61,608 bases of DNA from Bacteroidales bacterium. GTDB taxonomy: Bacteria > Bacteroidota > Bacteroidia > Bacteroidales > JAADGE01. The notes under the pieces were generated by a model. That model worked only from the letters and a program-made list of their open reading frames with translations. It had not been told where the DNA came from and made no database searches. The stretch lies in the NCBI GenBank assembly GCA_021648725.1, contig JAKISF010000021.1, forward strand, positions 1-61,608, in the 5' to 3' direction. The position numbers were made by a program, and so were the translations under genes. Positions 24,796-30,994 of this stretch are shown in pieces (position 1 is the first letter of the stretch; each line of letters begins with the position of its first letter).

Positions 24796-25053
24796 GCCAT
24801 GAATACACGATTTTTTTCTTTGTTTTTTATTCGTGAATTAGTGGCTATTATTATTCTCCCAAAACTTTCGCAATTCTATCTTTTATCTTTTGTTTTGTTG
24901 CCACGAATGCACGAATTTTGTTTTTTGCTTTTTTATTCGTGAATTCGTGGCTATTATTATTCTCCCCAAACTTTTGCAATTTTATCTTTTATCTTTTGTT
25001 TTGTTGCCACGAATACACGAATGTTTTTTGCTTTGTATTCGTGAATTCGTGGC
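24796..25053 (-). repeat. tandem palindrome array 1, behind hsdMS (three copies)
   Basis: Imperfect palindromes lie at 24796-24845, 24900-24951 and 25006-25053 (period 104-106). Each has 17-nt arms (left near GCCACGAATACACGAAT, right near ATTCGTGAATTCGTGGC) around a T-rich loop. The two 54-base spacers differ from each other at about three positions. Read on the minus strand they spell the last codons of the adjacent hsdMS gene with its stop: KIKDKIAKVWGE* and KIKDRIAKVLGE*, against KIKDRIAKVWGE* in the gene itself. So the repeated unit is 'gene tail plus palindrome'. Copy 3 ends six bases before the hsdMS stop triplet. Confidence 0.9.
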
Positions 25054-25058
25054 TAATA

Positions 25059-27566
25059 TTATTCTCCCCAAACTTTTGCAATTCTATCTTTTATCTTTTG
25101 CTCAAAAATCTCAATCAATTGTTTGCTTGAATTGACCAACTCCTGCTCTTTTTCAATTTTGGCTACGATTTGTTTTTGAGTTTCGAGTGGGGGAAGGGGG
25201 ATTTTGAATTGTTTAATTACTGTTGCAGATAGATTGCCTTGATTTCCTCCTCTTGAATCACTAATTTCTCGTAATTTTTCATAACTGCTTTGTAATATCG
25301 AAAACAAGTACCCAGAAGAAAGTCTTTCGGTTTTAATTATTAATGCAGCACATGCCTGATTTAGACTCGCATCAATACCTAACTTTGCAACTTTTCCTCT
25401 TGTTATTCCTTGACCATACATTGCCATAAGAATAGTTCCATTGGGAATAATACTTGCTGATGAGTTTTTCAATCCTAATTCTGTGATTTTTTCATCTGTA
25501 TCTGCAATTATTTCATAATTAATTTCGCCTGTTTTAACCCAAGGAATATCACCATTCCAGTATTTTGATTCATTTCTGCTTGGTGTTCCTCCTGATTTCA
25601 CTTTACAAATCTCCCCCAACTCCACCATTTCCCAATCGGGGTCAATATCAATTTGGGGTTTGTAGTTTTCCACTACCATTTTTGCACCGTCTATTATTTT
25701 TTGGTAGCCCTCTATTTCGGCTACTATCTCTTCTTGAACGGATAAGGGCGGTAGGGGGATTTTTAAAGTTCTAATTCTGGATAATGCAAGTTTGGGGACA
25801 CCAACAGCGTGAGTTAAACTTTTTATTTGCTCTTGAACTTTATCAGAACTCAAAATATTAGATAAATATATATTTGATATAACACTGTAGTCGCGAATAA
25901 CAAGTTTAGCAGCATTTTCAGTTAAATTAGCTCCATCTAAGTTGCTTGGTACTGTTCCTGTAAGACCAATTGTTCCTGCTATTGAGATAAACACATCTTC
26001 TGAACTTATTGTGTATCTTGAAATTCCTTTATGAATTGATTCAGAAATATATTTCAAATTTGACTGATTTATTGTTTTCTTTCCAAAATCAGCAACTCTT
26101 ATATATGGATGTTTAGTTATACTTTCAGAATATTTACAACCTTTTGGTAACCGTTTGCCACCTTTAACTTCAACAATTTCACCCAATGCAATTAACTTAT
26201 AATAGTGGCTAATTAACTTATTGTTTTTATACCTCTCCCCACTTAAATTAAACTCCCCATTTTCGGCAATCTTTGCTTTTTCAACGGCGTGGGCTATTTT
26301 ATATTTAGCCACTAATTCACGAATAAATTCGTCTTCCGTTCGTGTATTCGTGGCTTCCTTATATTTCCCAAGCAGTTCAATAGCTTCGCCAAGCTGTCCG
26401 CCCTTAATTGCATTTCGTTGTGCTCCGAGGTTGTAACCGTCATTTTCAATTTTTACAAAAAGGATTTTATTGCTCTTTTTGGCAATGGCTTTATCCATTA
26501 GCAGAATGGAAGTTTTTACACCGGAATAAGGATTAAAAACACCTGCGGGCAAACTTACTACTGCGTACAGATAATTTTCAACCAACATTTTACGCAGCTC
26601 TTTGTAGGCTTTTCCGCTTTGGAAAATAATTCCTTCGGGAACAATTATACCTGCTCTTCCGTTTGGGTTTAGATGCTCGGCAATATAATCTACAAACAGC
26701 ACTTCCGAACGGTTAGAAGTAACCGTAAACTTTTTATGCGGTCGTATTCCGCCTTTCGGACTCATAAACGGCGGATTGGCAAGAACTACATCAAAGTTTT
26801 CGTTCCAACGCTCTTCGCTTGTTAAGGTATCATATTCAAAAATATGTGGGTCAGAAAAACCGTGCAGATAAAGATTTACCAAACTGAGTCGCACCATATC
26901 GGGCGAAATATCGTAACCGATAAAGTTTTTAATCAGTTTTTTACGTTCGTCAGGTGTAAGCTGGTTATTGTTTTTTTCTTTAATTCTTTTAAAAGCAGAA
27001 ATCAAAAAACCTGCTGTTCCGCAAGCCGGGTCAAGAATGGTATCCGTTTTGCCCGGGTCAACGGCTTTTACCAAAAAATCAATAATATGGCGTGGTGTTC
27101 TAAATTGTCCTGCATCGCCTTGGCTTCCCATTACCGAAAGTAAATATTCAAAAGCGTCTCCTAACTTTTCGCTGTGGGTATATTCAAATTCGCCTATGGT
27201 TTTCAGAAACAGTTTCAGCGTTTCGGGGTCACGATAAGGCAAATAAGCATTTTTAAAAATATTGCGGAAAAGCTGTGGAATATTCGGGTTTTTCTCCATG
27301 CTTTCAATGGATTCCGAATATAATTTTAGCATTTCGGTTGCTGTAACTTTTGCATCAAAAAGACTGTTCCAACTGTATTTGGCATAATCTCCCGAAAAGA
27401 ATTTTGCTTCTCCGCCTAACTCAATGGATTCTTTATCCATATCGTCCATAAACTTATAAATCAAAGCTATGGTAATCTGTTCAATTTGCGATTTCGGGTC
27501 GGGAAGTTTCCCTACGAGAATATCCCTGCAATCGTCTATTCTCTTTTTGGTTGTATTATCTAACAT
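25059..27566 (-). CDS. type I restriction-modification HsdM-HsdS fusion (N6-adenine methyltransferase plus specificity subunit)
   Basis: The N-terminal half is HsdM: a helical domain, then SAM motif I DPACGTAGF (179-187) and catalytic NPPF (264-267). The C-terminal half is HsdS with two target-recognition domains (about 455-620 and 650-800). Each is followed by the conserved helical repeat (IPLPPLSVQEEIVAEIEGYQ and IPLPPLETQKQIVAKIEKEQ). Fusion of M and S is uncommon but known. Residues 405-420 (ATNTRTEDEFIRELVA) are encoded by a copy of the palindromic repeat found nine times around the locus. GC sampled by eye is higher in the M half (27001-27060: 31/60; 26761-26820: 27/60) than in the S half (26101-26160: 18/60; 25861-25920: 17/60). 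Confidence 0.93.
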   Translation of the reverse strand: MLDNTTKKRIDDCRDILVGKLPDPKSQIEQITIALIYKFMDDMDKESIELGGEAKFFSGDYAKYSWNSLFDAKVTATEMLKLYSESIESMEKNPNIPQLFRNIFKNAYLPYRDPETLKLFLKTIGEFEYTHSEKLGDAFEYLLSVMGSQGDAGQFRTPRHIIDFLVKAVDPGKTDTILDPACGTAGFLISAFKRIKEKNNNQLTPDERKKLIKNFIGYDISPDMVRLSLVNLYLHGFSDPHIFEYDTLTSEERWNENFDVVLANPPFMSPKGGIRPHKKFTVTSNRSEVLFVDYIAEHLNPNGRAGIIVPEGIIFQSGKAYKELRKMLVENYLYAVVSLPAGVFNPYSGVKTSILLMDKAIAKKSNKILFVKIENDGYNLGAQRNAIKGGQLGEAIELLGKYKEATNTRTEDEFIRELVAKYKIAHAVEKAKIAENGEFNLSGERYKNNKLISHYYKLIALGEIVEVKGGKRLPKGCKYSESITKHPYIRVADFGKKTINQSNLKYISESIHKGISRYTISSEDVFISIAGTIGLTGTVPSNLDGANLTENAAKLVIRDYSVISNIYLSNILSSDKVQEQIKSLTHAVGVPKLALSRIRTLKIPLPPLSVQEEIVAEIEGYQKIIDGAKMVVENYKPQIDIDPDWEMVELGEICKVKSGGTPSRNESKYWNGDIPWVKTGEINYEIIADTDEKITELGLKNSSASIIPNGTILMAMYGQGITRGKVAKLGIDASLNQACAALIIKTERLSSGYLFSILQSSYEKLREISDSRGGNQGNLSATVIKQFKIPLPPLETQKQIVAKIEKEQELVNSSKQLIEIFEQKIKDRIAKVWGE
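26308..26354 (-). repeat. palindromic repeat copy translated inside hsdMS
   Basis: This 47-base copy has arms GCCACTAATTCACGAAT (plus strand, left) and TTCGTGTATTCGTGGC (right) with a 13-base loop. Compared with the nine intergenic copies it is in the opposite orientation. On the gene strand it is read without stop as ATNTRTEDEFIRELVA. It falls between the conserved HsdM segment LGEAIELLGKYKE and the following KIAHAVEKAKIAENGEFNLS, a loop of variable length and sequence in HsdM proteins. Confidence 0.85.
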
Positions 27567-27586: not shown

Positions 27587-27823
27587 GCCACGAATACACG
27601 AATTTTGTTTTTTTCTTTTTTATTCGTGAATTAGTGGCTATTATTATTCTTCCAAAACTCTTTCAATCCTGTTATGTTTGCCACGAATACACGAATTTTG
27701 TTTTTTTCTTTTTTATTCGTGAATTAGTGGCTATTATTATTCTTCCAAAACTCTTTCAATCCTGTTATGTTTGCCACGAATGCACGAATTTTGTTTTTGC
27801 TTCTTTATTCGTGTATTAGTGGC
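27587..27823 (-). repeat. tandem palindrome array 2, between hsdMS and the GxxExxY gene (three copies)
   Basis: Copies lie at 27587-27638, 27680-27731 and 27773-27823, with an exact 93-base period. The first two copies have the same arms; the third has GCCACGAATGCACGAAT and ATTCGTGTATTAGTGGC. The two 41-base spacers are essentially identical. On the minus strand they spell HNRIERVLEE* followed by TAATA, a gene tail that does not belong to either neighbour. Copy 3 ends three bases from the stop triplet of the GxxExxY gene. Confidence 0.9.
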
Positions 27824-27825
27824 TA

Positions 27826-28200
27826 TTACAATACAATTCTTTTATAATTTAATTTCAATTCTCCAAAATTTACAATTAAAGCAAGTTTATTGCCCGATAC
27901 TTTCAGGTAGTTTAATGCCTGTGCTGTAAATTCATCAGCTATGCCTGCAACTCCTTTTATCTCTAAAATAATCTTGTCGAACACCACAAAATCAGCATAA
28001 AATTTGTGCGGCAAAATAACGCCTTTGTAGTTTACTTCATATTTTTTTTCTCTTTCGTATGGGATATCAGCTTTTTTAAACTCCAATTCAAGAGCATCTT
28101 TATAAACAATCTCCAAAAATCCCGCTCCTAAATTATTATAAACATCCATACATTTGCCTATTATCTGATAGCTTTCTTCTTTATAAATAATACTTGTCAT
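27826..28200 (-). CDS. GxxExxY protein (PDDEXK-like fold)
   Basis: A 124-residue protein of the GxxExxY family: the name-giving motif is GFLEIVY (GAGFLEIVYKDALE), and a nuclease-like core follows as YADFVVFDKIILEIKG, with Asp and ExK in the PD-(D/E)xK arrangement. The family is widespread in Bacteroidota and its biochemical role is not established; a nucleic-acid-processing role is inferred only from the fold. It is embedded in the restriction locus, on the same strand as hsdR and hsdMS, with palindrome arrays on both sides. It ends NYKRIVL with a stop three bases from a palindrome. Confidence 0.85.
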   Translation of the reverse strand: MTSIIYKEESYQIIGKCMDVYNNLGAGFLEIVYKDALELEFKKADIPYEREKKYEVNYKGVILPHKFYADFVVFDKIILEIKGVAGIADEFTAQALNYLKVSGNKLALIVNFGELKLNYKRIVL

Positions 28201-28218: not shown

Positions 28219-28460
28219 GCCGCGAATGCACTAATTTTGTTTTTGCTTTTTATTCGTGAATTCGCGGCTATTATTATTCTCCTAAAACTTTATCTATTAT
28301 TTTTTATTTTATTGCTTGCCACGAATACACGAATGGTTATTAATTTTATTCGTGAATTTGCGGCTATTATTATTCTCCTAAAACTTTATCTATTATTTTT
28401 TATTTTATTGCTTGCCACGAATACACGAATGGTTATTAATTTTATTCGTGAATTAGTGGC
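28219..28460 (-). repeat. tandem palindrome array 3, between the GxxExxY gene and hsdR (three copies)
   Basis: Copies lie at 28219-28268, 28318-28364 and 28414-28460 (periods 99 and 96). The first copy has paired changes at both ends (GCCGCGAA with TTCGCGGC in place of GCCACGAA with TTCGTGGC), so the stem is kept. The two 49-base spacers are near-identical. On the minus strand they spell KIIDKVLGE* followed by TAATA, again a gene tail not belonging to a neighbour. The last copy ends six bases from the hsdR stop triplet. Confidence 0.9.
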
Positions 28461-28465
28461 TATTT

Positions 28466-30994
28466 TTATGCTGCAAACAGCTCTAAGTTAATATAATCTT
28501 CAATATATTCGGGAACTTTTTTTCTGTACTTTGGTGCAACTTTCTTAAATTCCGAAATCGGCAAAGTTGCATTGGTTTGTAATGCTTGAAAATCTTTTGC
28601 TTTTAAAATCTCTCGTATATCTTGGTCAACAACATAAGCTTTGAAAAAGTATTTTAATGCTCTTACATTTACATCTTCATCAGGCGGATAAATGGAAATG
28701 AATTTGTCAAATTCTTCTTCCAATAATTCGTCTTTTGATTTGAATTTCGGAATAATACCAAAAATCTTTTCTACCACTTCACGAATTGAAACTTTTCTGT
28801 CAATTTTAGCTGCTTTACGCAGTTTTTCTAAATTGAAATATTCTTCGGGTTTATCAAATATTTCGCTTTGAATATGACTAATTACATGCTCCCAATTGCC
28901 AAGTTCAACATTCTTTTTAATAATGTCGTCCATAACAATGCGGTCTTCAAACTTTTTGAACAGTTCACGGTCGATTCTCATTCCTTCATAACCGATTGCT
29001 TGTTCTTTGACCATTACCAATGGGTCGGGGCGTAAACTTGTGTATTTGTCAATATCAACACCGCCACCACCACCTTCACCGCCTTTGGTTCTTGGTTTAG
29101 GAAGTTTTAATTTCTCGTCATAATCAAATTTTTCTTCAAAATATTCGCAGTTGGCAAAGAAATCAAAGAGTTTGAAATACTCTTTTTCGTGTTGAATTAT
29201 TTCATCTTCGCCCAATTCGTTTTTGTGCTTAAATTCAAAAGTGTGTTTTCTTGTTCCTCTGCCTTTTATCTGAACAAAATCGGCAGGACTGAAAATAGGT
29301 CTTGCCATGCAAAGATTTAATAAATCGGGGCAATCGTAACCTGTTGTCATCATACCTACTGTAACGCAAATTCTTGTTTTACTCGATTTGTAACCCTCTA
29401 ACCAATTTGTTTTACCGTTCAGATTATTGTTGGTGAAATTGATAGTCATTTGTTGAGCATTATCAATTTGCGATGTTACTTGCACTGCAAAATCAGATTT
29501 GTATTTGCCCGGATAAAGTTCTTCTGCAAACTCGTTTAATATTTCGGTTAATTTTCTCGCATGATTTTGACTAACTGCAAAAAACAAAGTTTTACCAATT
29601 TCGTTTGTAATCGGGTCGTGCAAGGCATTTTCTAAAAATGTTTTACAGAAAACACGGTTTGTTTTTTCTGAGAAAAATTTCTTTTCAAAATCACGGGAAA
29701 CAAAAGTTTCGGTCTCTTCACCTTCTTCTTTTGGAATAGCAACCGCATAACCTTCATCAGATAAAAGTTGAGTAGTTATTTCCGTTCTTGCATCAAGAAC
29801 TTTCGGATTAATTAAAAATCCGTCTTTTACTCCGTCAATCAACGAATAACGATAAGTCGGGTCGCCACCTTCACAACCAAAAGTTGCATAAGTATCACGC
29901 AACATTCTGCGTTCTATTTCTCTTGGGTCATTCTCTTTTACTTTGTTGATGTCAACATTTTTCAAATAGTCTTTTGGTGTGGCTGTTAAACCTAATTTAT
30001 AACCATGAAAATATTCAAAAACTGCTCTTGAATTTCCTGAAATTGACCTGTGAGATTCGTCTGAAATTATCAAATCAAAATCGGTAGGCGAAAACAGATA
30101 AAGATATTTATTGTCGAATGTCAAAGATTGAACAGTTGTAACAACAATGTCCGCTTTTCTCCAATCGCTTTTATGTTCTTTGTAAATAAATGTAGTGTAA
30201 TCAGGTTTCAGATAATTTGTAAAAGCTTTCCATGCCTGGTCTTCCAATTCCAAACGGTCAACCAAAAACAAAACTCGTCTTGCATTTTCAGTTCGCAGAA
30301 AGAGACGAATTACCGCAGCAGAAGTCAGGGTTTTTCCTGTTCCTGTTGCCATTTCGTATAAAAATCTGTCTTTGCCATTTGTAACTGCTTCTTGTAATTT
30401 ATGAATTGCAGTTTTTTGATAATGGCGTAAAAAACGAAGTCCGTTATCCCAAATAAAATCTTTGCTGTTTTCAATAGAACCGTTCCAAGCCGGTCTTTCT
30501 TTGTAATCGGGCATTTGAACGGTAACAATATAATCATCATCAACAATTTCGTTTGCTAATGCCTCTCTGTCAGGATTCCATTCTTTTATTGCTCCAATTT
30601 CGTTTGGCGAAGGAAATTTATAAATTGGTTTTGGATTTCCTTTTTCCAAATCCCATAAATAGTGAACAATTCCGTTTGATAAAATGATAAATTGAGCATT
30701 TACGGTTTTTGCATATTTTCTTGCTTGCTCTTTTGCTGCCAAAGGATGTAAATCTTCTCTCTTTGCTTCAAGAACACAAATCGGTTTGTTGTTGCTGTCA
30801 ACCAGTAAAAAATCTAATGAACCTGATTTTACTTTTTCAAAATCATTTCCCCAAGCATCAACTTCCGTTTGAGTAATCTTTACATGATTCTCAAGCAATA
30901 TATTTGCTTTCCCTTGCTCATTGTCAAAGAATCGCCAGCCTGCTTCTTCAAGCAGTTTATTAATCTTTATTCTTGCATGAGCTTCATTCTTCAT
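28466..30994 (-). CDS. hsdR: type I restriction enzyme R subunit HsdR (EcoEI-type)
   Basis: This is the ATP-dependent translocase and nuclease of the type I complex. The N-terminal PD-(D/E)xK nuclease has Asp61 (SLDFLLVD) and Glu76/Lys78 (VLEAKRE). The SF2 helicase core follows, with Walker A MATGTGKT (to 222), DESH at 312-315, GLTATP (motif III) and the second RecA domain (VTVGMMTTGYDCPDL, QIKGRGTRKH). A Gly-rich linker (GGEGGGGGVD) leads to the EcoEI R C-terminal domain ending YIEDYINLELFAA. At 842 residues it is full length. It is upstream of the GxxExxY and hsdMS genes in one minus-strand set, so with HsdMS it could form a complete system. Confidence 0.95.
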   Translation of the reverse strand: MKNEAHARIKINKLLEEAGWRFFDNEQGKANILLENHVKITQTEVDAWGNDFEKVKSGSLDFLLVDSNNKPICVLEAKREDLHPLAAKEQARKYAKTVNAQFIILSNGIVHYLWDLEKGNPKPIYKFPSPNEIGAIKEWNPDREALANEIVDDDYIVTVQMPDYKERPAWNGSIENSKDFIWDNGLRFLRHYQKTAIHKLQEAVTNGKDRFLYEMATGTGKTLTSAAVIRLFLRTENARRVLFLVDRLELEDQAWKAFTNYLKPDYTTFIYKEHKSDWRKADIVVTTVQSLTFDNKYLYLFSPTDFDLIISDESHRSISGNSRAVFEYFHGYKLGLTATPKDYLKNVDINKVKENDPREIERRMLRDTYATFGCEGGDPTYRYSLIDGVKDGFLINPKVLDARTEITTQLLSDEGYAVAIPKEEGEETETFVSRDFEKKFFSEKTNRVFCKTFLENALHDPITNEIGKTLFFAVSQNHARKLTEILNEFAEELYPGKYKSDFAVQVTSQIDNAQQMTINFTNNNLNGKTNWLEGYKSSKTRICVTVGMMTTGYDCPDLLNLCMARPIFSPADFVQIKGRGTRKHTFEFKHKNELGEDEIIQHEKEYFKLFDFFANCEYFEEKFDYDEKLKLPKPRTKGGEGGGGGVDIDKYTSLRPDPLVMVKEQAIGYEGMRIDRELFKKFEDRIVMDDIIKKNVELGNWEHVISHIQSEIFDKPEEYFNLEKLRKAAKIDRKVSIREVVEKIFGIIPKFKSKDELLEEEFDKFISIYPPDEDVNVRALKYFFKAYVVDQDIREILKAKDFQALQTNATLPISEFKKVAPKYRKKVPEYIEDYINLELFAA

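Follow-up and report, generated by a model that had tools for sequence, protein, structure and literature searches.

The 61,608-nucleotide stretch of Bacteroidales DNA studied here (the window) contains a type I restriction-modification (R-M) operon on its reverse strand. Its hsdMS gene (25059 to 27566) encodes an HsdM-HsdS fusion of 835 residues (P0001), in which an N6_Mtase domain (residues 133 to 450) and two Methylase_S stretches share a single frame, and domain searches identified the HsdR gene of the same operon at 28466 to 30994. Between hsdR and hsdMS we found, also by domain search, a small gene on the same strand (27826 to 28200) for a PD-(D/E)XK nuclease (PDDEXK_3) that is a member of the GxxExxY family (TIGR04256, PF13366).

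Repeat and half-site searches identified nine intergenic copies of a palindromic repeat, family F1 (CACGAAT type, with element ends GCCAC..GTGGC), arranged in three arrays: downstream of hsdMS (24796 to 24845, 24900 to 24951 and 25006 to 25053), between the GxxExxY gene and hsdMS (27587 to 27638, 27680 to 27731 and 27773 to 27823), and between hsdR and the GxxExxY gene (28219 to 28268, 28318 to 28364 and 28414 to 28460). Allowing up to two mismatches, we counted 20 instances of the half-site CACGAATNCACGAAT in the window, where shuffled sequence gives an expectation of 0.40. The GxxExxY gene is bracketed by inverted CAC repeats on both sides (27587 to 27823 and 28219 to 28460), which places these repeats in the CACRRA(G/T) class proposed below. 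Within each array the F1 copies alternate with two spacers, which read on the reverse strand as C-terminal protein tails with stops. The spacers at 24846 to 25005 duplicate the final part of the window's own hsdMS, stop codon included, as judged from sequence reading, repeat families and comparison of C-termini, and those at 27639 to 27772 (ending NRIERVLEE-stop) and 28269 to 28413 (ending KIIDKVLGE-stop) resemble HsdS tails by eye. The three kinds of spacer thus look like copies of different hsdS 3' ends, and suggest either tandem duplication of a tail together with its palindrome, or remnants of hsdS genes that have since been lost.

A further F1 copy lies inside hsdMS. This 47-bp palindrome (26308 to 26354), located by repeat search and translation, is free of stops on the gene strand (reverse), where it reads ATNTRTEDEFIRELVA, residues 405 to 420 of the fusion. 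It is inverted relative to all nine intergenic copies, with a 49-nt match that is 84% complementary to 28414 to 28462. The sequence-only reading had proposed the in-frame capture of a palindromic repeat where the methyltransferase joins its specificity half, and this was upheld when we compared orthologs of the fusion. One source of these was a contig scan with 546 relatives, of which the top 80 were used; their HsdM parts are 93% to 63% identical to that of the window, and their record titles name Bacteroidota, Spirochaetota, Proteobacteria, Planctomycetota, archaea and others. The other was a draw across the phylum, in which 27 of 395 genomes matched at E 1e-60 or better. The 110 sequences (109 loci and the window) were reduced to 97 frames by removing L186 (no match), five duplicate frames and seven distant ones. 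The same element was present, in frame and at the same place (site B), in the relatives L088, L090 and L089 (93%, 89% and 86% identical to the window, respectively), indicating that the reading frame is real and not an artefact. Scanning all 97 frames for F1 half-sites with up to two mismatches, we found F1 at site B only in the window and these three relatives; the residues of the insert are thus common by descent to these four alone among the 97. One further half-site lay close to the start of the L089 frame, and four other frames had single two-mismatch hits away from site B.

In an AlphaFold2 model made from 72 aligned sequences (mean pLDDT 86; pTM 0.52, too low to trust how the M and S parts are placed with respect to each other), the insert is predicted to form the end of one helix, a turn and most of the following helix. 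Residues 408 to 411, within site B, form the turn between helices 392 to 407 and 412 to 421, so that the insert lies at an inter-helix turn in the predicted structure. Between the window and L090, 7 of 17 residues of the insert differ, compared to 29 of 374 in the HsdM part, and the nucleotide divergence is alike in both (10 of 51 and 206 of 1122 positions, respectively). At the protein level the insert behaves like unconstrained sequence in this pair, and it is most likely a tolerated passenger.

We identified strong palindromes (score of at least 11, loop of up to 20 nt) at only two places in the HsdM orthologs. There were 16 in 12 of the 97 frames, with 12 at site B (residues 400 to 428), four at a second place, site A (185 to 212), and none elsewhere; twenty synonymous-codon shuffles gave mean expectations of 0.30, 0.25 and 3.2, respectively, in a test that was not blind, since both sites were defined after a first view of the ortholog palindromes. 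At a score of at least 9, the counts were 15 at site B (1.25 expected), 11 at site A (2.3 expected) and 51 elsewhere (42.4 expected). In the window, site A corresponds by alignment to residues 199 to 204 (26955 to 26972, reverse strand), which carry no palindrome and form a coil between helices 186 to 198 and 205 to 213 in the model. Thus, the acceptor site is not particular to the F1 insert, which amends the sequence-only reading: the in-frame element is shared by three relatives, but the M-to-S junction also accepts about ten palindrome families (assigned by eye over the two sites), and it is not the sole hotspot, as the neighbourhood of residue 199 is also hit.

Site B carries GTAGAGACGC-type palindromes in L091, L105, L107 (twice) and L117, GGAGACAGGGC in L096, a TGAACTTGTTTCAG-type element in L101, ATTCCCGCG-type elements in L153 and L155, ATTCCGGACT in L183, a CAGGAT-type element in L139, a AATTACGAATT-type element in L164, CCCCCCTTG in L103 and a GATCGGTCC pair in L180. 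Site A carries a TGAACTTGTTTCAG-type element in L088, GTAG-type elements in L091, L107 and L117, and others in L096, L153 and L161. Hand-assigned states on a quick HsdM tree, made with the columns of both sites removed and with 36 of its 94 inner branches poorly supported, require at least 12 changes at site B and at least seven at site A. Palindrome density alone is a weak argument, with two palindromes in 68 hsdR frames, 14 in 78 hsdMS frames and 19 in 385 other frames, at least three of these 19 being misfiled (hsdMS frames of L096 and L101, and a RAYT-like frame of L105); position and family identity carry the case. As separate observations, L107 has two GTAG palindromes at site B together with a partial duplication of the next HsdM segment (2218 to 2467), and L131 (7957) and L126 (4016 and 5388) have inverted repeats of CAGGAT type or TCTGAATCAGGATT type, situated at or close to GxxExxY genes and within hsdMS, the hsdMS repeat of L131 being located in the S half.

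The close relative L088 provides a filled counterpart to the unfilled site A of the window. The two are 93% identical over the HsdM query and both carry F1 at site B, but at site A L088 reads VRSNAELVSASKQIPKQVRNDG where the window reads IKEKNNNQ. Since both share the site-B insert and only L088 has the site-A element, the site-B insertion is older than the split of the two lineages. The L088 site-A half-site (TGAACTTGTTTCAG family) has 25 exact copies in the L088 genome, including the one in hsdMS, and none in the window genome. The site-A insertion thus probably came after that at site B, in the present host of L088, with loss in the window lineage as another possibility.

We investigated the distribution of F1 in the whole window genome (3.24 Mb in 66 contigs, 98.1% complete). 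With zero or one mismatch there are 17 half-sites, every one of them within 3.7 kb of the one R-M operon, and seven two-mismatch half-sites were found outside it, compared to five for a backwards control, so that a genome-wide spread of F1 in this genome is rejected. We sought a close HsdMS relative in 21 genomes of the window's family and found none, the best match outside the window having an E value of 5e-33 and 32% identity. The confinement of F1 to the operon, and this absence of a close relative from the family, suggest that the operon probably arrived by horizontal transfer together with its palindromes. Elsewhere, the F1 pattern GCCACGAATNCACGAAT was identified in 22 of 395 drawn Bacteroidota genomes, counting that of the window, and some of these have dozens of dispersed copies.

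Capture within coding sequence was rare in the places where such elements usually reside. We sampled stretches with 23 of the 25 G415 half-sites, 20 stretches of G442 and 20 from three F1-rich genomes, and found element groups deep inside a frame in 0 of 20, 1 of 20 and 1 of 26 cases, respectively; the frame in the third sample is short, at 105 residues. Thus, against these samples, HsdMS is unusual.

We consider it probable that a non-autonomous palindrome was captured in frame at a permissive loop tip of HsdM, and that the operon later moved horizontally with its palindromes. The insert would be a copy of a short palindromic element which belongs, as its CACGAAT variant, to a repeat class found on both sides of many GxxExxY PD-(D/E)XK genes. 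It would have entered in frame in an ancestor of the HsdMS proteins of the window, L088, L089 and L090, landing on a hairpin tip, between two helices, at the junction of HsdM and HsdS. This tip and that near residue 199 may be the places that best tolerate extra residues, which would explain why palindromes of many families are kept at sites A and B and not elsewhere. Transfer of the operon, with the palindromes carried along, would explain why F1 is found nowhere else in the window genome.

The readings differ in where such palindromes come from. The inserts could derive from whichever palindrome family abounds across the genome of the current host, with the operon carrying its older stamps onward and the small genes beside hsdMS playing no role, which we regard as a real possibility that stops short of being probable. 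The abundance of the L088 site-A family in the L088 genome agrees with this, as do the L153 genome, with 12 sites of its site-B family including the insert, and the dispersal of F1 in some other Bacteroidota. Searches of three further genomes point the other way, since the matching families were confined to the R-M operon, beside a GIY-YIG or RAYT-like gene, in L101 (two of two exact half-sites), L108 (three of three) and L107 (five of five palindromes, with up to three mismatches), all three being metagenome-assembled genomes without a stated completeness.

In many relatives we additionally identified small genes for nucleases or transposases that lie between hsdR and hsdMS (in the gap), called by motif and with Pfam or NCBIfam confirmation for a sample. 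GxxExxY genes were found in the window, L089, L120, L126, L131 and L139, GIY-YIG genes in L101, L103 and L108, and IS200-type genes in L093 and L099 (others by eye). RAYT-like genes were found in L096, L098, L104, L105 and L107, at 52 to 59 bits, which is under the NCBIfam cut-off of 80, and a fragment was seen in L095 by eye. Each of the five intact gap RAYT-like genes itself contains an in-frame GTAG-like palindrome (L096 at 5686, L098 at 5069, L104 at 5694, L105 at 3194 and L107 at 560), and in L108 (5431 to 5778) the GIY-YIG gene appears to take its final codons and its stop from the palindrome itself.

Such a cassette might seed its own palindromes into nearby DNA, hsdMS included, a local origin that we hold to be possible and rather doubtful. 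Across 80 loci, gap nucleases and hsdMS inserts co-occur (9 of 15 versus 9 of 65 in a broad set, p 0.0005; 6 of 15 versus 6 of 65 in a strict set, p 0.008). In this comparison the families and the membership of the broad set are visual assignments, the rows share ancestry, and the window and L089 represent one event. The association was not significant within a Bacteroidota clade of 25 rows (strict, 5 of 11 versus 4 of 14, p 0.32; broad, 7 of 11 versus 4 of 14, p 0.09). Where a locus has a gap nuclease and its insert is F1, GTAG-like or TGAACTTG, the pairing is as expected in all six cases, namely F1 with GxxExxY (window and L089), GTAG-like with RAYT-like (L096, L105 and L107) and TGAACTTG with GIY-YIG (L101); in L103, L126 and L139 the insert accompanying the gap nuclease is of another family, which places them outside this comparison. 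Against local seeding, neither site A nor site B carries an insert in L098, L104, L108 and L120, which do have a gap nuclease, and the RAYT-like assignments are below cut-off. Conversely, a GxxExxY gene was not found in the gap of L088 and L090, which keep F1 at site B, nor a RAYT gene in that of L091 and L117, which have GTAG-type inserts, indicating that a resident nuclease is not needed now.

A selected role for the palindromes, in tuning the joint between M and S or in providing homology for the swapping of HsdS halves, is unlikely. The junction would be the exchange point of S modules, and the intergenic spacers resemble hsdS tails followed by palindromes, as such a role might predict, but a long stretch of sequence separates site A from the S half, the window and L090 show no constraint on the insert at the protein level, the families differ between close relatives, and many orthologs have no palindrome at all. 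That the insert is a chance or low-complexity linker merely resembling the repeat, as the variability of the linker among orthologs might suggest, is refuted to a near certainty by the inverted match, the excess of half-sites and the presence of the element in three relatives.

In-frame capture at a permissive tip is the reading that we retain, and it shares features with several known systems. Like Rickettsia palindromic elements (RPEs), the F1 insert is a short palindrome translated within an intact protein. The likeness to RPEs drawn in the sequence-only reading holds in this respect but not in others, as the F1 copies are not dispersed in their own genome (17 of 17 in one operon), differ in sequence, and lack the CGTC terminal tag described for RPE-type repeats in PMC3733652, which assigns the intragenic repeats of R. 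conorii to RPE-4 and RPE-6 of the CGTC class. Here, furthermore, there is one acceptor family, with two fixed sites and many palindrome families. GTAG REPs and their RAYT genes (REPtrons) similarly combine palindromes with a small adjoining mobility gene, and L107 resembles a plain REPtron within an R-M operon; in contrast, the gap gene of the window is of the GxxExxY family, and its repeat has neither a GTAG end nor an adjoining RAYT gene. Intragenic REPs are also reported in that paper, many in DNA-repair genes, with recB hit at nearly the same position in two species of Xanthomonas (PMC3733652), whereas the palindromes studied here occupy two recurrent sites of one protein family and belong to about ten families. 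The word "restriction" is absent from the main text of that paper, and its supplementary list of target genes may include R-M genes. Among the papers listed in our literature search, none reported a palindrome inside HsdM or a pairing of these nucleases with palindromes, and we found no description of repeats bracketing GxxExxY genes, a term that was incidental in the passage checked.

The sequence-only reading had correctly placed the insert at the M-to-S junction, and had left the bracketed GxxExxY gene of the operon unconnected with it. We investigated whether such genes are accompanied by palindromes elsewhere. The simple rule that CACGAAT copies lie beside GxxExxY genes failed, with a GxxExxY gene, by motif only, at one of 49 F1 loci, a set that includes the window's, and a nuclease link was seen only for the wider CAC class. 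This class was formed on a first set of 30 GxxExxY loci. It was then tested on 40 further loci, drawn from 33 genomes that partly overlap those of the first 30, with 40 control stretches of the same genomes located 30 kb away (15 kb for one). The CAC double repeat was present at 17 of the 40 new loci, compared to 3 of 40 controls (p 0.0003) and 1 of 30 GIY-YIG loci. A CACRRA(G/T) 7-mer within 150 nt to the left of the gene, with its inverse to the right, was found at 18 of 40 loci and 0 of 40 controls, with the 150-nt limit and the single-7-mer bracket chosen after the test set was known; for the double repeat the corresponding counts were 15 of 40 on at least one side and two of 40 on both, against none of the controls.

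For GIY-YIG genes, 6 of 34 small frames (up to 300 residues) lay within 1 kb of a TGAACTTGTTTCAG half-site, compared to 0.127 expected and to 0 of 19 large frames; three of the six (G428, G435 and G415) were known before the test, and the three new ones alone give P 0.0003 against the same expectation. The corresponding signal for family F4 was weak (1 of 6, P 0.05). An independent draw yielded GTCAT hairpins at 4 of 30 GIY-YIG loci, compared to 1 of 70 GxxExxY loci and none of the 40 controls (p 0.0076 against these 110 pooled, and 0.03 against the 40 controls alone). Hairpins scoring at least 13 within 500 nt of the gene were present at 10 of 27 GIY-YIG loci, three of the 30 having been dropped as too short, versus 3 of 40 controls (p 0.004) and 6 of 40 GxxExxY loci (p 0.04). 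On visual inspection, the ten include at least one tRNA gene and two others that look unrelated to repeats. Stand-alone GIY-YIG genes thus tend to adjoin CGTC-type palindromes, as far as gene neighbourhoods can tell. We also observed tandem GIY-YIG arrays, with three copies at 317-nt steps in G132 (C1:1733881-1734727) and five copies at 450-nt steps in G236 (C1:120132-122135).

We tentatively suggest, as a testable idea for which the evidence is positive and partly negative, that GIY-YIG and GxxExxY nucleases may be the missing mobilisers of CGTC and CACRRA(G/T) palindromes, the role ascribed to RAYTs for GTAG REPs, and that the gap between hsdR and hsdMS may be a recurrent home of three types of cassette that seed the two loop tips of HsdM. 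The F1 insert of the window may accordingly have been mobilised by a GxxExxY nuclease, and those of its relatives by RAYT or GIY-YIG proteins.

The CGTC repeats are apparently without a dedicated transposase according to the 2013 account in PMC3733652, which leaves open the enzyme that moves them. The gene neighbourhoods described here give GIY-YIG proteins as a candidate, and provide a second assayable pair in GxxExxY proteins and CAC repeats. HsdMS additionally offers a natural series, in which the same two loops hold many different inserts, so that the growth of proteins by palindrome capture becomes testable.
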